A stretch of 64,000 nt of DNA, from positions 124,001 to 188,000 of the forward strand of contig NZ_CP016178.1 of assembly GCF_001677275.1 (NCBI RefSeq). The letters run 5' to 3'. A program made the translations under genes and the position numbers. This DNA comes from Vibrio breoganii. GTDB lineage: Bacteria > Pseudomonadota > Gammaproteobacteria > Enterobacterales > Vibrionaceae. Below the pieces are notes generated by a model. It made no database searches. It was not told where the DNA came from and saw only the letters and a list, made by a program, of their open reading frames with translations. Below are positions 1,696-15,268 of this stretch, piece by piece; within the stretch, counting starts at the first letter, position 1, and each line of letters begins with the position of its first letter.

Positions 1696-1758
1696 ATTTA
1701 AATGATAAATCAAACCATATTTCTCACGTTTTCTTTAAATACAAGGGCTTAGTTGTGT

Positions 1759-1774
1759 TGGCATGCCGATTGCA
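1759..1774 (+). promoter_or_regulatory. sigma-54 (-24/-12) promoter of the guanidine operon
   Basis: TGGCATGCCGATTGCA has TGGCA and TTGCA spaced exactly as in the RpoN consensus (GG, 10 bases, GC). Transcription would begin around 1785, leaving a leader of about 220 nt that contains the guanidine-I riboswitch before the first gene at 2007. Position and spacing together make chance unlikely, but this has not been tested. Confidence 0.65.
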
Positions 1775-1847
1775 ATACAGATTACAGTTTTAGTATAAGA
1801 GCATAACTAGGTATTTCGGTTACCTAGCAACGACATTGTTGAAAAAT

Positions 1848-1942
1848 AGACATCTAGGGTTCCGACTGTATTTGCAGTGTCTGGTCCGAGAGTTGTCAAC
1901 CTCACCAGAGGTCACACGGAGGGATAAAAGCCCGGGAGGCCA
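1848..1942 (+). ncRNA. guanidine-I riboswitch (ykkC class)
   Basis: The leader holds the conserved ykkC blocks in order: CTAGGGTTCCG at 1853-1863, CTGGTCCGAGAG at 1881-1892, CACACGG at 1913-1919 and GGGATAAAAGCCCGGGAGG at 1921-1939. This aptamer class binds free guanidinium and switches on genes for its export or breakdown. It lies 65 nt upstream of the substrate-binding protein gene of a guanidine-use operon, which agrees with that role. A small hairpin, AACCAA/TTGGTT (1942-1960), follows but has no U-run. The ribosome site GGAGGAGG (1993-2000) is nearby, so whether it acts on transcription or translation is unclear. Confidence 0.92.
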
Positions 1943-2006
1943 ACCAATGAATATTTGGTTATGTCTCTTGTGCCAATCTCAATGTGCCCCATGGAGGAGG
2001 TAACCT

Positions 2007-3080
2007 ATGAAACATTCCCTTAAAAAGCGCTTGATCACCCTTGCTGCCACTGTATGTGTGACAGCCTCACCGTTTATTTCATCCGCTGCACTGGCTCAAG
2101 AAAAAGAGAAATTCACTCTTGCTTGGTCTATTTACGTAGGCTGGATGCCTTGGGATTACGCAGACTATTCAGGCATTGTTGATAAATGGGCAGATAAGTA
2201 TGACATCGACATCGATATTGTTCAGGTAAACGACTACGTCGAATCAATTAATCAGTACACTGCGGGCCAGTTTGATGCCACTGTGATGACCAACATGGAT
2301 GCTCTAACCATTCCAGCAGCGAGTGGTGTTGACTCTACCGCGTTAATAGTCGGTGACTTTTCTAATGGTAACGATGGAATCGTACTAAAGGGGGCAAAAG
2401 GATTAAATGATTTGAAAGGTCAAAACGTCAACCTTGTTGAACTGAGTGTCTCGCACTATTTAATGGCTCGCGGTCTTGAAAGTGTCGGCCTCTCTGAGCG
2501 TGACGTGAAGGTGGTGAATACCTCTGATGCAGACCTTGTTGCAGCGTTTACTACCAAAGATGTTACCTCTGTTGTTACTTGGAACCCTCTTCTAAGTGAG
2601 ATCACCCAACAACCAGAAACCTCTCTTGTGTTTAGCTCCGCAGATATTCCTGGAGAGATCATCGACTTGTTGGTGGTTAATACTGATACCCTCTCCGAGA
2701 ATCCTAAGTTAGGTAAAGCATTGACGGGCGCATGGTATGAAATCATGGCCATTATGCAGTCTGAAAATGGTGATGATGCCAAGTCATATATGGCACAAGC
2801 CTCAGGTACTGACCTGTCAGGATACAAAGCACAACTGTCAGCAACCAATATGTTCTATTCCCCTAGTGATGCAGTCGATTTTACTAAGAGCACGACACTA
2901 GCGGCAACGATGAAAAAGGTCAGCGAGTTTTCATTTGAACATGGGTTACTAGGTGAAGGGGCTCCTGATGCTGGATTTATCGGTATTCAAACACCTTCCA
3001 CGGTGATTGGTGACCCTGCCAACATCAAACTTCGCTTCTCTCCTGAATATATGGAAATGGCCGCAAAAGGTCAGCTGTAA
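2007..3080 (+). CDS. ABC transporter substrate-binding protein, probable guanidine/urea-type
   Basis: The 357-residue precursor starts with a signal peptide (basic KKR, hydrophobic core, cleavage likely after SSAALAQ, about residue 30). The mature part has the NMT1/TauA-like periplasmic fold pattern, including YVGWMPWDYAD near the start and a run of FDATVMTNMDA. It would capture substrate in the periplasm for the permease and ATPase encoded next. A guanidine-I riboswitch upstream and guanidine-degrading enzymes downstream point to guanidine as the ligand. Related proteins are usually labelled putative urea transporters. The start is supported by GGAGGAGG seven bases before the ATG. Confidence 0.85.
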   Translation: MKHSLKKRLITLAATVCVTASPFISSAALAQEKEKFTLAWSIYVGWMPWDYADYSGIVDKWADKYDIDIDIVQVNDYVESINQYTAGQFDATVMTNMDALTIPAASGVDSTALIVGDFSNGNDGIVLKGAKGLNDLKGQNVNLVELSVSHYLMARGLESVGLSERDVKVVNTSDADLVAAFTTKDVTSVVTWNPLLSEITQQPETSLVFSSADIPGEIIDLLVVNTDTLSENPKLGKALTGAWYEIMAIMQSENGDDAKSYMAQASGTDLSGYKAQLSATNMFYSPSDAVDFTKSTTLAATMKKVSEFSFEHGLLGEGAPDAGFIGIQTPSTVIGDPANIKLRFSPEYMEMAAKGQL

Positions 3081-3113
3081 CCACATAGACAGGCTCGTTT
3101 TGAGGAAGTTTAA

Positions 3114-3944
3114 ATGACAAAAGTAATAAACCGCTATCCTACTCGAACTGGGCAGCTAGTGCTGGGATTGTTGCCATTTATCATTCTCGTCATGCTGTAT
3201 ATCACAGCCTCAGATGCGAGATTGGCAGCTAACTCTGCAGACAAGCTACTGCCTGCGTTTGGCAGTTTCGTGGATGCCATCGACCGAATGGCGTTCACCC
3301 CAAGTAGACGCACTGGAGAGTATCTTTTGTGGGTAGATACTCTAGCGAGTTTGACCCGTTTACTTATGGGGGTTGGCATCAGTGCTCTGGTTGGCTTGTC
3401 AGTAGGCATAGCGACGGGCATGGTGCCCTTGGTGCGCTCAACCTTCTCACCTGTTGTTACTGCCGTTTCTTTGATCCCACCAATGGCAGTGTTGCCAATA
3501 TTGTTTATTACCTTTGGGCTGGGGGAGCTGTCTAAGGTCGTGCTTATCGTGGTGGGCATCTGTCCGATTATTATTCGCGATATTCAGCTGCGAGTGCAGA
3601 GCTTACCGGACGAGCAGTTGATTAAGGCACAAACCTTAGGGGGCAGCAGTTGGCAGATCATTCTTAGAGTCGTGTTGCCACAGATCATTCCAAAACTGAT
3701 TGATGCGGTTCGTCTAACGTTAGGCAGTGCTTGGCTGTTCTTAATTGCTGCAGAAGCCATCGTTGCTACCGAAGGCTTAGGCTACCGCATCTTCTTAGTG
3801 CGGCGCTACCTATCGATGGACGTGATTTTGCCTTACGTTTTGTGGATCACTTTACTGGCGTTTTGTATGGATTGGTTGCTGAAGAGTTTGTCCAAGCGAA
3901 TTAGCCCTTGGCATCATCAGGCACAAGGAGACGATAATGGATAG
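3114..3944 (+). CDS. ABC transporter permease, probable guanidine uptake
   Basis: The 276-residue protein has about six membrane segments. It carries the BPD-type EAA loop around residues 165-200, reading AQTLGGSSWQIILRVVLPQIIPKLIDAVRL, which contacts the ATPase. This is the inner membrane channel of a nitrate/taurine-type importer. It begins 33 nt after the binding-protein gene and overlaps the ATPase gene by 8 nt, so the three are clearly co-transcribed. Substrate assignment rests on the operon context. Confidence 0.85.
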   Translation: MTKVINRYPTRTGQLVLGLLPFIILVMLYITASDARLAANSADKLLPAFGSFVDAIDRMAFTPSRRTGEYLLWVDTLASLTRLLMGVGISALVGLSVGIATGMVPLVRSTFSPVVTAVSLIPPMAVLPILFITFGLGELSKVVLIVVGICPIIIRDIQLRVQSLPDEQLIKAQTLGGSSWQIILRVVLPQIIPKLIDAVRLTLGSAWLFLIAAEAIVATEGLGYRIFLVRRYLSMDVILPYVLWITLLAFCMDWLLKSLSKRISPWHHQAQGDDNG

Positions 3945-4740
3945 CGCTCAGCCGATCATCAAGATCAAAAATCTGTGGAAAGAGTATGGCGACAACATAG
4001 TACTGGAGAAGTTGAATCTCGAGGTGCAAGAGGGAGACTTCGTTAGCATTGTTGGTGCCTCAGGATGTGGCAAGACAACGTTTTTGAATATGTTGCTGGG
4101 CACTGAGAGTCACTCTCGAGGCGAGATAATGCTAGATGGTGAGCCCCTTAAAAATGAGCCTAGTGTAGAGAGGGGGATTGTGTTTCAAAAGTACTCAGTG
4201 TTCCCACATTTGACCGCTCTACAAAATGTCATGTTGGGTGTTGAATTTGATGCCGGGGGCGTAAGCAGTAGTTTGCTGGGTCGACTTACGGGTGGTGAGA
4301 AAGCGAAAGCACAGCAGGTCGCTCTAGCGATGCTCGAACAAGTTGGCTTACATGCAGCGAAAGACAAGTACCCACATGAGTTATCAGGGGGAATGCGTCA
4401 AAGATTGTCTATTGCTCAATCCTTGGTCAAAAAGCCACGAATCTTGCTGTTAGATGAACCCTTTGGAGCACTGGACCCGGGCATTCGTAAAGACATGCAC
4501 CAATTGATCCAATCCTTGTGTGCTGAGCAGAGCTTGACGGTATTTATGATCACTCACGATCTGAGCGAGGGCTTTCACTTGGGTAATCGTTTGTGGGTAT
4601 TTGACCACGTGCGCAAAGACGAGCAAGCACCAGAGCGATTTGGTGCCCAAATCACCTTTGATATTGATATCGATAAACAAGTAGTGCCGAAACTGGTGTC
4701 AGATGCCCTGCCTGAAATAACACAACAAAAAATCGCATAA
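3937..4740 (+). CDS. ABC transporter ATP-binding protein, probable guanidine uptake
   Basis: The 267-residue ATPase shows Walker A GASGCGKT (about residues 37-44), Q-loop VFQKYSVFP, signature LSGGMRQR, Walker B ILLLDEPFGALDP and the switch His in MITHDLSEG. It belongs to the nitrate/sulfonate/taurine importer group and powers uptake by the adjacent permease. Its start lies inside the permease gene (8-nt overlap), typical of translational coupling. About 40 extra residues follow the switch region. Confidence 0.88.
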   Translation: MDSAQPIIKIKNLWKEYGDNIVLEKLNLEVQEGDFVSIVGASGCGKTTFLNMLLGTESHSRGEIMLDGEPLKNEPSVERGIVFQKYSVFPHLTALQNVMLGVEFDAGGVSSSLLGRLTGGEKAKAQQVALAMLEQVGLHAAKDKYPHELSGGMRQRLSIAQSLVKKPRILLLDEPFGALDPGIRKDMHQLIQSLCAEQSLTVFMITHDLSEGFHLGNRLWVFDHVRKDEQAPERFGAQITFDIDIDKQVVPKLVSDALPEITQQKIA

Positions 4741-4749
4741 GGAGTTGAT

Positions 4750-5490
4750 ATGCAAATAAATAAACAGGCCCTGTTCACGGATGTATTACCGGGAGCAGCA
4801 CATTGGTCGATGAAAGTGCCCAAGGGGCATGTATTACGTTTTAAAGACCTGGAAGGGGGCGCCAACCTTAGTCTACTGATGTACAACCCAGATAACCTGC
4901 TCGAGCGCTATAACGCGCCCGATACACTGAAGGGGCAGCATACCTTCAAGCTCACGAAGGGCAATTGTCTCTATTCCGATATGGGTCGAGTGTTTGCTTC
5001 TATTGTTCGTGATGATACTGCTTGGATTGATTCAGTGGCAGGGGTGACAAATAAAGAGAAGGTCACTGCTAAATGGGGCGCGCGCGACTACCAAAGCGAT
5101 CGCAACCAATGGAAACAAAATGGATACGATTCGTTGTTGGTAGAAGTGGCGAAATATGGTCTTGGCAAGCGTGACCTAGCGGCCAATCTGAATCTGTTTA
5201 GTAAGGTATTTACCAAAGACAGTGGCGACCTTTGCTATCAAGAGGAACACAGCAAAGCAGGGGATATCATTGAATTGCGCTTTGAAATGGACACCTTAGT
5301 GGTGATGACGACCTGCCCTCATCCTATGAATCCGGCAACTAGTTACCCATTTAAGCCCGTCGAGTTGAGCTTGCTTGAGGCCGAACCTCTCTCTCAAGAG
5401 GACACATGCCTAAATTCTCGCCCAGAAAATGAACGTGGATTTGAAAACAATCGCCGCTATTTAGTTCAGCACGGATCATACACAGTTTAA
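4750..5490 (+). CDS. carboxyguanidine deiminase subunit (urea carboxylase-associated protein 1, DUF1989)
   Basis: This 246-residue protein belongs to the DUF1989 family known as urea carboxylase-associated protein 1. In guanidine-degrading bacteria the two associated proteins form a deiminase that turns carboxyguanidine into allophanate and ammonia. Visible family stretches include [44 protein letters not shown] and [12 protein letters not shown]. It lacks the extra cysteines present in the partner encoded next ([16 protein letters not shown]), which suggests unequal roles in a heteromer. It follows the ATPase gene by 9 nt. The specific enzyme name is an inference from the riboswitches and neighbours. 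Confidence 0.8.
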
Positions 5491-5497
5491 GGAGTCA

Positions 5498-6139
5498 GTG
5501 ATGATAGTAGAAAGCCCATTGAAAACAGAATCTGCGCTCTATAGCAATGCAGTGCCTGCTGGGGATTATTTTATGAAGGTGGTCAAGAAAGGGCAGACGA
5601 TGCGCATTCTTGATCTAGAAGGAAACCAAGCGGCTGATACCTTATTTTACAACGCCAATGAGCCTGCAGAGCGTTATAGCGCGGTAGATACGATACGTGA
5701 ACAAGGTAATGTCTACTTATCGGCGGGTAGCAAGATTTTATCCGATCAGGGCAATGTCATGTTGGAGATTGTTGCCGATACCTGTGGTCGCCATGACACC
5801 TTAGGTGGTGCGTGTGCAACAGAGAGCAACACGGTGCGTTATGCCATTGATAAGAAGTGCATGCATGCTTGTCGCGATAGCTGGTTATTAGCTGTGGCTG
5901 AAAATGAACACTATGGCCTAACGAAGCGTGACATTACCCATAACATCAATTTCTTTATGAATGTGCCTGTTACTGAAGAGGGTGGTTTGACTTTCGAAGA
6001 CGGCATCAGCGCACCAGGAAAATATGTAGAACTTAAAGCGCATATGGATGTGATTGTATTGCTCTCTAATTGTCCGCAATTGAACAACCCATGTAATGCA
6101 TACAACCCGACACCAGTAGAAGTGATTGTCTGGAACTAG
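5498..6139 (+). CDS. carboxyguanidine deiminase subunit (urea carboxylase-associated protein 2, DUF1989)
   Basis: The 213-residue protein is the second DUF1989 partner. It carries [16 protein letters not shown] (about residues 89-104), CMHACRDSW and [11 protein letters not shown], cysteine and histidine clusters likely to bind metal or act in catalysis. Shared stretches with the upstream protein ([37 protein letters not shown]) show that the two are paralogues. The expected reaction is hydrolysis of carboxyguanidine to allophanate plus ammonia in the cytoplasm. The gene is 7 nt after its partner and is followed by the guanidine-II riboswitch hairpins. Confidence 0.82.
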
Positions 6140-6168
6140 GTCGTAGATAGACCATAGGATCATGAGCA

Positions 6169-6214
6169 GGGGACGACCCCAGTCATTGCTCGAGTTTAAG
6201 CCGGGACGACCCGG
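6169..6214 (+). ncRNA. guanidine-II riboswitch (mini-ykkC), two ACGA-loop hairpins
   Basis: Two small hairpins stand in the gap between the deiminase and carboxylase genes: GGGG-ACGA-CCCC at 6169-6180 and CCGGG-ACGA-CCCGG at 6201-6214. Two GC-rich stems with ACGR tetraloops separated by a short linker (20 nt here) define the mini-ykkC class, which binds one guanidinium per loop. The second hairpin ends two bases before the first possible ATG of the carboxylase gene (6217), so it is placed to affect ribosome access. Finding this inside an operon already led by a guanidine-I riboswitch is notable. Confidence 0.9.
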
Positions 6215-6216
6215 AA

Positions 6217-9200
6217 ATGTTGGACTCAACTATGTTTAGTAAGGTGCTTATTGCCAACCGCGGTGCAATTGCTTGCCGCATAATCCGAACGTTAAATCGT
6301 CTTAATATCACCAGCGTTGCTGTATATAGCGAAGCTGATGCCGATAGCCTTCATGTTTTACAGGCCGATGCGGCTTTCTCTCTAGGTGAGGGCGGCGCGA
6401 AAACTACCTACCTTGATATCGAAAAAATTATCTCTATCGCTAAGCAATCGGGCGCGCAGGCTATCCATCCTGGCTACGGATTCTTAAGTGAAAATCCCGG
6501 TTTTGTTACCCGTTGCGAACAAGAGAATTTGGTTTTTCTTGGCCCGACAACGGACCAAATCAATGCATTTGGTTTGAAGCACTCAGCTCGAGAGATCGCG
6601 GAAAATGCACAAGTACCGCTTTTGCCGGGCACAGGATTGCTTACTGATAAACGACAAGCGTTATTGTCAGCTGAGAGTATTGGTTACCCAGTTATGCTTA
6701 AGAGTACGGCGGGTGGCGGTGGTATCGGCATGGAGTGCTGTTACAGCGCTGGCGAACTAGAAGATGCCTTCGACTCAGTAAAACGCCTCAGCGAGAACAA
6801 TTTTAGTAACAGCGGTGTATTCCTAGAAAAATTCATTCAGCAGGCTCGTCATATCGAAGTGCAGGTCTTTGGCGATGGTAAGGGGCAGGTTGTTGCACTT
6901 GGAGAGCGAGACTGCTCAGCGCAACGTCGTAATCAAAAAGTGATCGAAGAAACCCCTGCGCCGAATCTTTTACCTGAAACTCGTTTGGCACTGCAAAATA
7001 CCGCTATTGCTCTGGCTGAGCAGGTGAACTACCGCAACGCAGGCACTGTAGAGTTTGTATTGGACAACCAGACTCAAGAATTTTATTTCTTAGAGGTGAA
7101 TACCCGTCTTCAGGTAGAGCACGGCGTCACAGAAGAGATCTTTGGCGTTGATCTGGTGGAGTGGATGGTCAAACAAGGCGAAGGCACGCTGGATTTGCAA
7201 CACGTAAGTAATGGACTTGAGCCCAAAGGTCATGCCATTCAAGTGCGCTTATATGCCGAAGATGCCAATAAGAATTTTCAGCCATGCGCTGGGCTTTTGA
7301 GCCATGTTAAATGGGCTGATATGCCTGAGCTTAGAGTGGAACACTGGATTGAAGCCGGTGTCGAAGTTTCTCCGTATTTTGATCCTATGCTGGCTAAGCT
7401 CATTGTTCACTCAGAGGATAGGGCGACGACCATTGCGAAATTGATGAGTGCGCTTGAGCAGTCGGAGATCTATGGTATTGAACACAATCAGCACTATCTC
7501 GCACAATTACTGGCAAGTTCTTTGGTACAAACTGGCGAGGTACTCACTCGCTCTCTCAACGATTTTCAGTATAAGCCCAATACACTGGATGTTATCAACG
7601 GCGGTGTGCAAACCAGCATTCAAGATTACCCAGGGCGAGCAGGATACTGGCATATAGGTGTTCCACCTTCGGGCCCAATGGATCCTTTGAGCTTTCAGCT
7701 GGCTAACCAACTTCTTGGCAACACTCAACAAGATGCAGGTCTAGAGATTGTCATTTCAGGCCCAACCCTAAGGTTCAACATAGATAAACATATTGTTGTT
7801 ACTGGCGCTGAGATCCAAGCGACGCTCGATACCCAGCCAGTTCCTATGGGAAAAGTGGTTAAAGTAGCCGCAGGCCAGGTGCTAAAGCTTGGCAAGATCA
7901 CCGGCAGTGGCGCTCGTAGCTACCTAGCGATTGAAGGAGGAATCGACTGCCCTGATTACTTGGGCAGCAAATCAACCTTCACATTGGGACAATTTGGTGG
8001 ACATGCTGGGCGTACCTTAGTGGCAGGTGATGTACTGCATCTGCACTCAGAACCATTATGCTCTGAGCTAGAAGGGCAATCAGCACAGCTTCCCGAGATC
8101 CAAGATGAGTGGGATATTCGCGTTATTTATGGCCCTCATGGAGCGCCAGACTTTTTCACTGACCAAGACATTCAAACCTTCTTTGACGCTCAGTGGAAAG
8201 TGCACTTTAACTCTAGCCGAACGGGCGTTCGACTTATAGGGCCTAAACCTGATTGGGCACGCACTGACGGTGGAGAAGCAGGATTGCACCCCTCGAATAT
8301 CCACGACAATGCTTATGCTGTAGGAACCATCGATTTCACCGGTGACATGCCAGTGATTCTGGGCCCTGATGGTCCAAGTCTAGGAGGATTTGTGTGTCCG
8401 GCTACCATCATTAAGGCTGATCTATGGAAGATGGGGCAGCTTAAAGCTGGCGATAAGGTGCGATTTACACCTGTTTCGTTGTCTTGCGCTGAAAAAGCAG
8501 AGAGAGAACAGCTCTCGCAAATCAAAGCACTTTCTATTTCACCAATGCCCCTTGCTAAAGCTGATATCACCTCGTCAATCCTGAAAATCTTACCCGCTGA
8601 ACAGTTCGGAGAACAGGTAGTGTATCGCCCGAGTGGAGAAGATTTCTTGCTGGTGGAATACGGTCCGCAAATGCTTGATATACGCCTTCGCTTTCGCGCT
8701 CACGCTTTGATGTTGAAGCTAGAAAGCCTTGCCATTGAAGGTATTGAAGAATTAACGCCAGGGATTCGCTCCTTACAGATCCACTTCGACAATCTGCTAT
8801 TGCCAAGAGATAGATTAATGACTTTATTGGAGTCATTAGAAGCGGAAATGGAGAACATTGACGAGCTTGAAGTTCCTGCTCGCGTCGTGCATTTACCGCT
8901 TTCTTGGGATGATGAAGCCACCAAGCTTGCCATCAGAAAATATGACGAAGTAGTGCGTAAAGACGCCCCTTGGTGCCCCGACAACATTGAGTTTATCCGT
9001 CGCATTAATGGCTTAGATTCAGTCGAGGATGTGAAAAAAATTGTGTTTGATGCGAGTTACTTAGTTATGGGGTTAGGGGATGTCTATTTGGGCGCTCCCG
9101 TAGCGACCCCAATGGACCCACGACATAGATTAGTCACGACTAAGTACAACCCCGCGCGAACATGGACTCCTGAAAATGCGGTAGGTATTGGCGGCGCATA

Positions 9201-9828
9201 TATGTGTGTTTATGGCATGGAAGGGCCGGGCGGCTATCAGTTTGTTGGGCGAACCTTGCAAATGTGGAATCGATACCGCCGCACAGAAGCCTTTAGCAAG
9301 CCTTGGCTACTGAGATTTTTTGATCAAATTCGTTTCTACGAGGTCACCCCTGAGGAGTTATTGACCATTCGCCAGCAGCATCCACGTGGTGAGTATCCAG
9401 TGAAGATAGAGCAAACACGTTTTTCTCTAGCGGATTATCAAGCCTTGGTGGATGAGCATGCAGAGGAGATTGCTGTGTGCCGTAAGCGTCAGCAACTGGC
9501 CTTTGAAGAGGAGCGCCAGCGCTGGGAAGCGTCAGGGCAAGCCAATTTTGTAGCTGAGGACATCTCCGAGCTAGAGCAAGATACATTTACTTTGAGCGAA
9601 GGGCAGGAAGCCATCGAAAGCTATGTGGCAGGCAATATTTGGCAGACCTTAGTAGAGCCAGGTCAATGGGTGAAGGAAGGAGATGTGGTGATGATCTTAG
9701 AAGCAATGAAGATGGAGCTTGAAGTTACCGCAAGTGTTTCTGGAAAGATCCATTCCATATGCAAACCATCTGGCTCTCAGGTACAAGCGGGACAGCCATT
9801 GATGATTGTCGAATGTGCAGAGCAATAG
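6217..9828 (+). CDS. guanidine carboxylase (urea carboxylase family), biotin-dependent
   Basis: The 1203-residue enzyme has three parts: a biotin carboxylase domain (about 5-450; KVLIANRG, HPGYGFLSEN, ATP loop STAGGGGIGM, EVNTRLQVEHGVTE), a KipA/KipI-like carboxyltransferase region (about 455-1110) and a C-terminal biotinyl domain with EAMKMEL (biotin Lys near 1165). It carboxylates guanidine or urea using ATP and bicarbonate. Two guanidine riboswitches and both deiminase subunits in the operon argue for guanidine as substrate, giving carboxyguanidine. Fusion of all parts in one chain is normal for the family. The start may instead be ATG 6232, giving MFSKVLIANRG, the usual N-terminus; neither start has a strong ribosome site. 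Confidence 0.88.
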   Translation: MLDSTMFSKVLIANRGAIACRIIRTLNRLNITSVAVYSEADADSLHVLQADAAFSLGEGGAKTTYLDIEKIISIAKQSGAQAIHPGYGFLSENPGFVTRCEQENLVFLGPTTDQINAFGLKHSAREIAENAQVPLLPGTGLLTDKRQALLSAESIGYPVMLKSTAGGGGIGMECCYSAGELEDAFDSVKRLSENNFSNSGVFLEKFIQQARHIEVQVFGDGKGQVVALGERDCSAQRRNQKVIEETPAPNLLPETRLALQNTAIALAEQVNYRNAGTVEFVLDNQTQEFYFLEVNTRLQVEHGVTEEIFGVDLVEWMVKQGEGTLDLQHVSNGLEPKGHAIQVRLYAEDANKNFQPCAGLLSHVKWADMPELRVEHWIEAGVEVSPYFDPMLAKLIVHSEDRATTIAKLMSALEQSEIYGIEHNQHYLAQLLASSLVQTGEVLTRSLNDFQYKPNTLDVINGGVQTSIQDYPGRAGYWHIGVPPSGPMDPLSFQLANQLLGNTQQDAGLEIVISGPTLRFNIDKHIVVTGAEIQATLDTQPVPMGKVVKVAAGQVLKLGKITGSGARSYLAIEGGIDCPDYLGSKSTFTLGQFGGHAGRTLVAGDVLHLHSEPLCSELEGQSAQLPEIQDEWDIRVIYGPHGAPDFFTDQDIQTFFDAQWKVHFNSSRTGVRLIGPKPDWARTDGGEAGLHPSNIHDNAYAVGTIDFTGDMPVILGPDGPSLGGFVCPATIIKADLWKMGQLKAGDKVRFTPVSLSCAEKAEREQLSQIKALSISPMPLAKADITSSILKILPAEQFGEQVVYRPSGEDFLLVEYGPQMLDIRLRFRAHALMLKLESLAIEGIEELTPGIRSLQIHFDNLLLPRDRLMTLLESLEAEMENIDELEVPARVVHLPLSWDDEATKLAIRKYDEVVRKDAPWCPDNIEFIRRINGLDSVEDVKKIVFDASYLVMGLGDVYLGAPVATPMDPRHRLVTTKYNPARTWTPENAVGIGGAYMCVYGMEGPGGYQFVGRTLQMWNRYRRTEAFSKPWLLRFFDQIRFYEVTPEELLTIRQQHPRGEYPVKIEQTRFSLADYQALVDEHAEEIAVCRKRQQLAFEEERQRWEASGQANFVAEDISELEQDTFTLSEGQEAIESYVAGNIWQTLVEPGQWVKEGDVVMILEAMKMELEVTASVSGKIHSICKPSGSQVQAGQPLMIVECAEQ

Positions 9829-9839
9829 GGAATAAAGTT

Positions 9840-11654
9840 ATGCAAGATACTAAGCAGTTATTAAGTACAGGCCAAGCCGCTTTGACGATTACCGAGCTGA
9901 TTGATTCATATAAGAGTGGACAGCGCTCGGTAACAGAGCATTTACAACAGCTACTTGTCAGCGCTCAACAAGACACTAACAAAGCATGGATCAGCACCAT
10001 TGACCAGCGACAATTAGACAACTACCTAGCCAACCTTAGTGAGCATGATATTGACGATCTGCCACTGTTTGGTGTGCCCTTTGCGATTAAAGACAATATT
10101 GATCTGGATGTGCTACCCACGACTGCAGGTTGTAAGGCATTTACTTATCAACCGGAATCATCGGCGTTCGTGGTGGAATTATTGATCGCAGCAGGAGCCG
10201 TTCCACTTGGTAAAACCAATCTCGATCAGTTTGCAACTGGGCTTGTCGGTACTCGCAGCCCTTATGGTGCAGCGCAGAATAGTTTTGATAGTAAGTATAT
10301 TTCTGGCGGTTCTAGTGCTGGCAGTGCGGTAAGTGTTGCTCAGGGACAAGTGATGTTTTCCCTAGGAACGGATACCGCAGGTTCTGGTCGCGTTCCTGCG
10401 GCGTTTAATAACCTCTATGGACTCAAACCCTCAAAAGGGTTGCTCAGTTGCCGAGGGGTTGTTCCTGCTTGCAGAAGTCTAGATTGTGTAACCCTATTTA
10501 GTCACAGTGCGGATGATCTGTCTTTGCTTTTATCGATTGTGGCTAAGTATGACCAAGAGGATTGTTACGCACGGATAGCACCTCAAGAACCTGCAAGTGA
10601 AGTACTGGGTTCTATGAAAGGCGTTCGAGTCGGTATCCCGGCAGCAGAGCAGTTAGCCTTCTTTGGTAACGATGAATACATGAAGCTGTATCAGCAAGCG
10701 GTGCAGAATATCGAGGCACAAGGCGCTAAGTTGGTTGCCTTTGATCTCTCACCTTTTCTCGAGGCTGCATCATTACTTTATAACGGCCCTTGGGTTGCCG
10801 AGCGTTATGCTGCCATCGAAGCTTTCTTTGATGCTAACGTTGAAGAATGCCTGCCTGTGATAAAAGAAATCGTGGGCGGAGCAGCGGGTATAAGTGCTGC
10901 GGATACCTTTAAAGCCATGTATCAGTTGCAGGCTTACAAAGTAGAGTGTGACAAGTTGATGAACAGTGTCGATGTGGTAATGACACCAACCGCGGGGACG
11001 ATTTACACCATTGATGAAGTCAACGCGGATCCCATAGGACTTAATAGTAACCTAGGCTACTACACAAACTTTATGAACTTATTGGATTACAGTGCGATAG
11101 CTATTCCTGCCGGCTTTACAAATCAGGGATTGCCATTTGGCGTAACCTTATTTGCGCCTGCATTTAGCGATCAGAAACTACTATCCTTGGCCAGCGTATT
11201 GCAACTCGTTCCATCTAAAGAGCCAGAGGCTCAGATGAACAACCTTGAAACCATAGACATCATGGTGTGTGGGGCACATATGCAAGGTTTTCCGCTGAAT
11301 CATCAGTTGCTAGAACTAGGGGGGAGTTTGAGAGATCGAACGAAAACTTCCGATAACTATCAGCTATTTAAGCTCGCTGGTGGCCCGCCAATGCGTCCTG
11401 GAATGGTTCGAAATGAAGCGCAGGGTACCTACATTGATGTTGAAGTCTGGACTTTACCGAGAGCTAACTTAGGAGACTTCCTACTGCAAATTCCTCATCC
11501 ACTGGGCTTGGGCAGTGTAGAGCTGAGTGATGGAGAATGGGTAAAAGGTTTCATTTGTGAACCCATCGCTATTAAAGGCGCTCAAGATGTCACCGGATAT
11601 GGCGGTTGGCGAGGTTTTCTTGAGGCATTGGAACGGGAAGCTGAGGTGAGCTGA
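9840..11654 (+). CDS. atzF: allophanate hydrolase
   Basis: The 604-residue enzyme hydrolyses allophanate to two ammonia and two CO2, the last step of guanidine or urea breakdown by this route. The N-terminal amidase-signature domain (about 1-440) shows FAIKDNID with the catalytic Lys, GGSSAGSAVSVAQG with the cis-Ser and TDTAGSGRVPAAFNN with the nucleophile Ser. The C-terminal domain of about 130 residues is the usual AtzF extension, containing GGPPMRPGMV and GYGGWR. I chose ATG 9840 because longer forms run back into the carboxylase gene. It ends the operon before a strong terminator. Confidence 0.9.
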   Translation: MQDTKQLLSTGQAALTITELIDSYKSGQRSVTEHLQQLLVSAQQDTNKAWISTIDQRQLDNYLANLSEHDIDDLPLFGVPFAIKDNIDLDVLPTTAGCKAFTYQPESSAFVVELLIAAGAVPLGKTNLDQFATGLVGTRSPYGAAQNSFDSKYISGGSSAGSAVSVAQGQVMFSLGTDTAGSGRVPAAFNNLYGLKPSKGLLSCRGVVPACRSLDCVTLFSHSADDLSLLLSIVAKYDQEDCYARIAPQEPASEVLGSMKGVRVGIPAAEQLAFFGNDEYMKLYQQAVQNIEAQGAKLVAFDLSPFLEAASLLYNGPWVAERYAAIEAFFDANVEECLPVIKEIVGGAAGISAADTFKAMYQLQAYKVECDKLMNSVDVVMTPTAGTIYTIDEVNADPIGLNSNLGYYTNFMNLLDYSAIAIPAGFTNQGLPFGVTLFAPAFSDQKLLSLASVLQLVPSKEPEAQMNNLETIDIMVCGAHMQGFPLNHQLLELGGSLRDRTKTSDNYQLFKLAGGPPMRPGMVRNEAQGTYIDVEVWTLPRANLGDFLLQIPHPLGLGSVELSDGEWVKGFICEPIAIKGAQDVTGYGGWRGFLEALEREAEVS

Positions 11655-11707: not shown

Positions 11708-11752
11708 AAGCAGAGCTGTTCTGATTGAAAACAGCTCTGCTTTTCTTTTTTT
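11708..11752. terminator. intrinsic terminator between converging operons
   Basis: AAGCAGAGCTGTT (11708-11720) pairs perfectly with AACAGCTCTGCTT (11730-11742) and is followed on plus by TTTTCTTTTTTT. It ends the guanidine operon. On minus the same stem lacks a clean U-run but lies just past the batD stop, so it may serve both. Confidence 0.9.

Positions 11753-13390: not shown

Positions 13391-13397
<7 letters not shown>
11772..13397 (-). CDS. batD: BatD-family oxygen tolerance protein
   Basis: The 541-residue protein has an N-terminal signal segment (IRFKPLITTITLVTGLACSFSSWA), a long beta-rich periplasmic part with repeated Ig-like stretches (KDEVIQLKIVA, PTTDDIIEVRS, NESTKLDARIIVKVD), one membrane helix near residues 422-440 (WPMLTALFAGLWIFSTVMWV) and a cytoplasmic tail. 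This is the BatD layout. With MoxR and the von Willebrand proteins it is thought to form an envelope complex linked to stress or oxygen tolerance; its biochemical role is poorly defined. It overlaps batB by 7 nt. ATG 13385 (MIRFKPL) is an alternative start. Confidence 0.85.

Positions 13398-15257
<1,860 letters not shown>

Positions 15258-15268
<11 letters not shown>

Follow-up and report, generated by a model that had tools for sequence, protein, structure and literature searches.

A putative guanidine-assimilation operon of Vibrio breoganii carrying guanidine-I and guanidine-II riboswitches, an arrangement conserved across its genus

Introduction

The closest described counterpart of the locus reported here is the guanidine operon of Vreelandella (Halomonas) boliviensis, in which, according to the available text of its description, a guanidine-I riboswitch lies ahead of the operon and a guanidine-II riboswitch before gca, "like in several other bacteria" (PMC12508155). 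In-line probing of the two RNAs gave apparent KD values of 44 µM guanidine for guanidine-I, without methylguanidine binding in the tested range, and of 93 µM guanidine and 83 µM methylguanidine for guanidine-II, and the operon proteins increased on guanidine (PMC12508155). The two guanidine values agree in direction with separate thresholds, though they differ only about two-fold; the clearer difference in that system is one of specificity, since guanidine-II also accepts methylguanidine (PMC12508155). A review of tandem riboswitches, in its available part, reports no tandem with guanidine classes (PMC9481103), a statement taken here to concern riboswitches placed before one gene.

The window, i.e., the whole stretch of 64,000 nt of Vibrio breoganii DNA that was analysed, had been singled out in a preliminary description for two ACGA-loop hairpins immediately before a carboxylase gene, proposed as a guanidine-II sensor inside an operon already led by guanidine-I, a combination regarded as unusual and as one that could give uptake and the costly biotin carboxylase separate thresholds. 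The present analysis considers the gene content of the operon, the two RNA elements, their structural conservation, the distribution of the tandem and the putative promoter above it.

Results

Gene content of the operon

Seven genes lie on the + strand in the order importer, deiminase pair, carboxylase and allophanate hydrolase, with the guanidine-II element between the deiminase pair and the carboxylase. The predicted ABC importer comprises a substrate-binding protein (2007-3080; TIGR03427, 551.8 bits against a cut-off of 333.9), a permease (3114-3944; best match to the TauC family, under curated cut-offs) and an ATPase (3937-4740; ABC ATPase families, scoring under the curated cut-off for each of the 25 listed). 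The following pair, UAAP1 (4750-5490; TIGR03425, 316.3 bits, cut-off 205.95) and UAAP2 (5498-6139; TIGR03424, 340.9 bits, cut-off 284.7), would encode carboxyguanidine deiminase/hydrolase subunits of the cgdA/B type, a role that for UAAP1 is taken from the available text of PMC12508155. The biotin-dependent carboxylase, annotated as urea carboxylase (6232-9828), scored 1829.4 bits with TIGR02712 (cut-off 1303.85) when run from ATG 6217, and the allophanate hydrolase, atzF (9840-11654), scored 765.3 bits with TIGR02713 (cut-off 511.05) when run from 9759, where the mechanical open reading frame begins. The gap between UAAP2 and the carboxylase measures 92 nt to the start at 6232, the other gaps of the operon being 33 nt or less. 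On the 3' side of the operon, the + strand has a hairpin and U-run resembling an intrinsic terminator (11708-11752; -19.9 kcal/mol, z -4.91), a stem which the consensus scan reports on the - strand only.

ATG 6232 appears a more likely carboxylase start than ATG 6217: in relatives, the aligned N-terminus (MFSKVLIANRG in the window) begins at this position. Asp701, invariant in all eight aligned carboxylases, aligns with an Asn of the urea amidolyase 5i8i (chain position 1330); we take this position to be the discriminating Asp/Asn residue. Asp marks guanidine carboxylases and Asn urea carboxylases, as stated in the available text of PMC12186494, and by its active-site Asp the enzyme would be of the guanidine rather than the urea type. 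The gene families likewise point to a canonical guanidine-assimilation operon.

Elsewhere in the window, on the - strand at 13391-15268, a predicted protein has 29 glutamines in a row, the product of a simple repeat in its gene, and by eye only it has a VWA/TPR-type look.

Two riboswitch classes on one strand

An Rfam scan of the whole window returned two matches above gathering, one to each guanidine class, on one strand of one gene cluster, as the preliminary description had proposed. The full guanidine-I aptamer that it had placed in the operon leader was recovered at 1843-1940 on the + strand (RF00442, 87.7 bits against a gathering score of 63), and no other match to this class reached E <= 0.001 anywhere in the genome. 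Between the aptamer and the first gene (1941-2006, + strand) lie an AACCAA/TTGGTT hairpin without a U-run and the Shine-Dalgarno GGAGGAGG (1993-2000), and in the + strand interval 1940-2007 the consensus scan reported nothing terminator-like. The usual transcriptional platform, an intrinsic terminator after the aptamer, was thus not found in the window; it is the usual mode of guanidine-I and no condition for membership, according to the available text of PMC12186494. Nor do the guanidine-I leaders of the genus hold a convincing intrinsic terminator: 21 of 26 are without any hit, and each hit in the other five (L065, L069, L071, L081 and L082) is either weak or situated at a distance from the aptamer or beyond the start codon. 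When 24 of the 26 loci (L064 and L065 excluded) were folded together with RNAalifold, the resulting structure was weak (-5.04 kcal/mol, 1 of 15 pairs changed on both sides), and for this reason no expression platform is named.

Two further features of the leader may be recorded: a short hairpin, CTAGGTA...TACCTAG, lies at 1807-1827, between a sigma-54-type motif (see below) and the aptamer, and within it GGTTACCT (1818-1825) is complementary to AGGTAACC (1998-2005), which adjoins the Shine-Dalgarno of the first gene.

The hairpins reported at 6169-6214 are both present in the window sequence, P1 as GGGG-ACGA-CCCC (6169-6180) and P2 as CCGGG-ACGA-CCCGG (6201-6214), joined by a 20-nt linker (6181-6200). 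Their proposed guanidine-II identity was borne out by the covariance model (RF01068; 6165-6214, + strand), which gave 33.5 bits against a gathering score of 32 and E = 9.9e-5 in a whole-genome search, the sole guanidine-II in the genome at E <= 0.001. Taken alone, a score only 1.5 bits over gathering is marginal. The class is described with ACGR hairpin loops (available text of PMC9094411) and a linker of 7-40 nt (available text of PMC7544219), and the element has both the two ACGR-loop hairpins and a linker within that range, besides the gathering score and stems kept by compensatory change. The position before the carboxylase likewise holds; with ATG 6232 as the start, "immediately" amounts to the 17 nt that separate this codon from the end of P2. 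This distance is 15-19 nt in 20 of 23 tandems of the genus. At L064, L067 and L075 a start codon lies at about the usual distance past P2 and the conserved carboxylase N-terminus begins later, which suggests carboxylases with N-terminal extensions.

Structure of guanidine-II across the genus

P1 of the window element is closed by a bulged extension, the helix P0 (6164-6191, + strand), in which GAGCA (6164-6168) pairs with UGCUC (6187-6191) and from which P1 is separated by a 3' bulge of 6 nt. Among the 22 distinct rows of the genus alignment, 89.1% of P0 cells are paired and 4 of 5 pairs are changed on both sides, the variants including GAGC/GCTC (window), GAGTC/GACTC and AAGCC/GGCTT; the fifth pair fails to form in 9 of 22 rows, and one row (L059) is out of register in this count and counts against P0. 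For P0, P1 and P2 together (26 loci, 22 distinct), 94.2% of cells are paired and 8 of 14 pairs show double changes. Their covariation amounts to 0.250, compared with 0.121 (sd 0.014) in shuffles, none of 500 of which reached 0.250, and with 0.086 at best in slid controls. The comparative support for guanidine-II is therefore stronger than its single Rfam score.

In the available text of PMC9094411, a linker anti-Shine-Dalgarno masking the Shine-Dalgarno is the mechanism proposed for this class. The minimum-energy fold of the window predicts such a helix on the + strand (6192-6227), pairing GAGUUUAA (6192-6199) with UUGGACUC (6220-6227) and leaving the Shine-Dalgarno masked, and the helix is also present in the nearest relative (L068; proteins 96-99% identical). 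Across the genus, 50.9% of its cells are paired, compared with 60.0% at a register one column off. The linker and accessibility tests covered 23 of the 26 loci (19 distinct sequences), excluding the three with N-terminal extensions: linker/Shine-Dalgarno duplexes had a mean z of -0.28 (window z -1.27, p 0.10), and the predicted gain in Shine-Dalgarno opening on docking had a mean z of -0.46, with a gain above 1 kcal/mol in 7 of 19 sequences (window 2.3 kcal/mol, z 1.13). On these values the helix was rejected as a conserved platform. L060, L061 and L063 have strong linker/Shine-Dalgarno duplexes of a different kind (z -2.8 to -3.6), which makes lineage-specific off-states conceivable. Because the masked off-state is not conserved, folding leaves the way in which guanidine-II acts on translation unexplained.

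Occurrence of the tandem

Guanidine-I was detected in 26 and guanidine-II in 47 of 196 genomes of the genus (E <= 0.001), searches over more than 40 genomes applying stricter filters by which weak sites can be missed. Of the 26 genomes with guanidine-I, 23 also have a guanidine-II match in the same orientation 1.7-4.4 kb downstream, scoring above gathering in 20 of the 23 and just below it in G040, G103 and G177. The other three (G092, G107 and G142) bear two ACGR hairpins before the carboxylase, unreported by the search and read by eye, which brings the count to 26 of 26. A further genome (G145) has a sub-threshold guanidine-I match (32.9 bits) without guanidine-II.

The order of the seven genes is the same in 24 of the 26 loci, L064 and L065 being without a co-oriented importer. 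These two (genomes G103 and G143) have shorter operons, with guanidine-I about 1.7 kb before guanidine-II, and a weak substrate-binding-protein match (35-40%) upstream on the opposite strand. At L072 (G010), counted among the 24, the UAAP1, carboxylase and hydrolase matches are in pieces, which suggests frameshifts or assembly errors.

A class-wide sample of 369 genomes, drawn evenly and including the window's own genome, contained guanidine-I in 29 and guanidine-II in 27, with 11 tandems, defined as both classes within 12 kb on one strand. Among these 11, guanidine-II falls below gathering once (G389) and once is not directly before the carboxylase (G314); L086, with its guanidine-II located elsewhere, was omitted from the listing of gaps. 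A carboxylase search returned at least 80 loci, the first 19 of which, from named genomes, were searched further for the two classes. Most of the others are matches of 1.3-2.1 kb at 40-49% identity, taken as other biotin carboxylases; L150 and L164, outside the 19, match over longer stretches. Six of the 19 carry both classes on one contig and strand, namely a Chromatiales MAG, Pseudomonas laurylsulfatiphila, Enterobacteriaceae bacterium RIT714, a Hyphomicrobium MAG, Caballeronia pedi and Oxalobacteraceae bacterium CAVE-383. If contig numbering corresponds, the coordinates put guanidine-II 11-45 nt before the carboxylase in five of the six, the exception being the Hyphomicrobium MAG, with a distance of about 1.4 kb. 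One of the 19 (L109) holds part of the carboxylase only and several are short MAG contigs, so that misses there say little. Among plasmids, 239 records show 60-80% identity to parts of the query 1700-6400, Pantoea accounting for the first 15 listed, and none of the 239 covers 80% of it.

Guanidine-II also has another setting in the genus: among its best 30 loci, 6 lie before the carboxylase and 24 before a reading frame of 102-111 aa resembling small multidrug resistance (SMR) proteins. The SugE SMR model was the best match for all four frames tested, above its cut-off in one. A second guanidine-II outside the operon, before an SMR-like gene of 105 aa, was observed at L020 (G016) and L012 (G168), the gene at L020 scoring above the SugE cut-off.

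The combination can hence no longer be called unusual, because it recurs in the genus (26 of 26 genomes with guanidine-I, 23 by Rfam) and the class (11 of 29), occurs in 6 of the 19 named genomes and is already in print for several bacteria, as the available texts of PMC12508155 and PMC12186494 show.

A sigma-54-type motif upstream of both switches

On the + strand, 69 nt before the guanidine-I aptamer, lies the motif TGGCATGCCGATTGCA (GG-N10-GC; 1759-1774), which agrees at 10 of 10 core positions with what we take to be the sigma-54 consensus. When the 350 nt upstream were shuffled 200 times, this score was never reached. Motifs of 9 or 10 out of 10 occur at 13 places on both strands of the 64 kb, two of them with 10, and a single motif consequently means little, the weight lying on conservation. 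A strict motif (at least 9 of 10) lies within 350 nt upstream of guanidine-I in 20 of 26 genus loci and in 9 of 10 loci from the rest of the class. The six failures keep TTGGCA or TGGCA, with TTGG or TTGT at -12. A widened pattern, devised after these six had been seen, occurs within 150 nt upstream in all 26 genus loci and in 5 of 10 others, compared with 6 occurrences in 309,399 nt downstream of the genus loci (0.003 per 150 nt) and none in 117,671 nt downstream of the others. The motif suggests a nitrogen-limitation gate above both sensors. NtrC-like sites, sought with a loose pattern, appeared in 8 of 26 genus loci, in the window only by the loosest form, and were not used as evidence. Text searches, judged by title and abstract and with many subscription papers outside their coverage, returned no prior report linking guanidine riboswitch operons to sigma-54 or NtrC.

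Discussion

The aptamers recognised by covariance model, their co-orientation, the gene content, the conservation, the hairpin covariation and the motif of the putative promoter were all observed, and on them is built a reading to which we attach high confidence: a guanidine-assimilation operon with a guanidine-I gate in its leader and guanidine-II as a second gate on carboxylase translation, most likely transcribed from a sigma-54 promoter. Both RNAs would bind guanidine and act as ON switches on what is probably a single transcript. The leader aptamer would gate the whole transcript, or at least the first gene, and the element in the 92-nt gap would gate carboxylase translation a second time, so that the ATP- and biotin-consuming enzyme would be made only once guanidine has accumulated in the cell; with transcription from a sigma-54 promoter, nitrogen limitation would be a third condition. 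A fully specified version, with sigma-54 (probably NtrC-driven) conveying nitrogen status, a terminatorless guanidine-I governing uptake and a P0-bearing guanidine-II governing the carboxylase by a mechanism other than a linker/Shine-Dalgarno swap, is offered tentatively.

Some alternatives touch the elements themselves or the transcript that carries them. The 33.5 bits against 32 might invite the view that a match so close to the cut-off arose by chance, which we regard as practically untenable, given the conservation of the hairpins in 26 loci, their position before a guanidine carboxylase and above all the covariation, taken as refuting it. An internal promoter could also produce a separate carboxylase mRNA and thereby place the two switches on different messages, and the pre-carboxylase gap, longer than the others of the operon, would suit such an arrangement. 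The preliminary description had assumed one transcript, to be abandoned if a promoter and a terminator stood between 5498 and 6217; neither was reported on the + strand of this interval by the consensus scan. This silence is weak evidence, because in the region scanned it finds no more than shuffles do (7 promoter-like and 9 terminator-like sites against means of 14.0 and 10.4), and while no sigma-70-like + strand site is listed at 5498-6217, consensus scans miss real promoters; a sigma-54 site of at least 9 of 10 is likewise absent from this interval. Two separate transcripts are judged very improbable.

Other alternatives accept the tandem and differ on what the second switch contributes. 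A historical fusion, in which a guanidine-I unit (importer and deiminase) joined a guanidine-II unit (carboxylase and hydrolase) and left the second switch partly redundant, would fit the Thiobacillus genome G566, where by coordinates about 12 nt lie between the carboxylase and the end of a guanidine-II match (30.8 bits, below cut-off) and guanidine-I has no match, as well as the SMR-like exporter genes that follow most of the best guanidine-II loci of the genus. Compensatory changes have nevertheless kept the hairpins in all 26 genus loci, and the distance to the start codon is held within a few nucleotides in most Rfam-matched tandems (20 of 23, as above), which argues for continued selection; redundancy by fusion is considered rather unlikely, if worth keeping in mind. 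Somewhat less probable still is that guanidine-II serves ligand breadth and not a threshold, methylguanidine or another guanidino compound keeping the carboxylase on while guanidine-I remains strict: the specificities in V. boliviensis, where guanidine-II binds methylguanidine and guanidine-I does not, speak for it (available text of PMC12508155), but among the seven genes of the window operon there is no counterpart of a methylguanidine hydroxylase or lyase.

If the double-gated operon is the right reading, double guanidine control is a stable operon feature across a genus and not a curiosity, and the genus loci constitute natural variants for asking whether the second switch contributes a threshold, ligand breadth or redundancy. 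The sigma-54 motif, for its part, would tie riboswitch regulation of guanidine utilisation into general nitrogen control.

Compared with V. boliviensis as far as its available description extends (PMC12508155), the window operon agrees in its two riboswitch classes, in where each of them stands and in its gene set (importer, cgdA, cgdB, gca and atzF), whereas mgdH and mgdL are additional in V. boliviensis; guanidine-I is presumed to act through a terminator there, whereas no terminator was found in the window leader, and it is there that binding was measured. In Raoultella terrigena, Erwinia rhapontici and Klebsiella michiganensis, importer and deiminase stand under guanidine-I, with carboxylase and hydrolase immediately downstream under guanidine-II, as in the window; these are other genera, and the available text on them makes no mention that we found of a P0 helix or a sigma-54 site (PMC12186494). 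The RF01068 consensus likewise has ACGR-loop hairpins and also a long P1 (8 pairs); in contrast, guanidine-II of the genus has the outer stem P0 set off by a 3' bulge, and its linker/Shine-Dalgarno pairing is not conserved. The arrangement is real, conserved and already described, and the present locus adds some new detail to it, including the covarying outer helix P0 that closes P1 across the genus.
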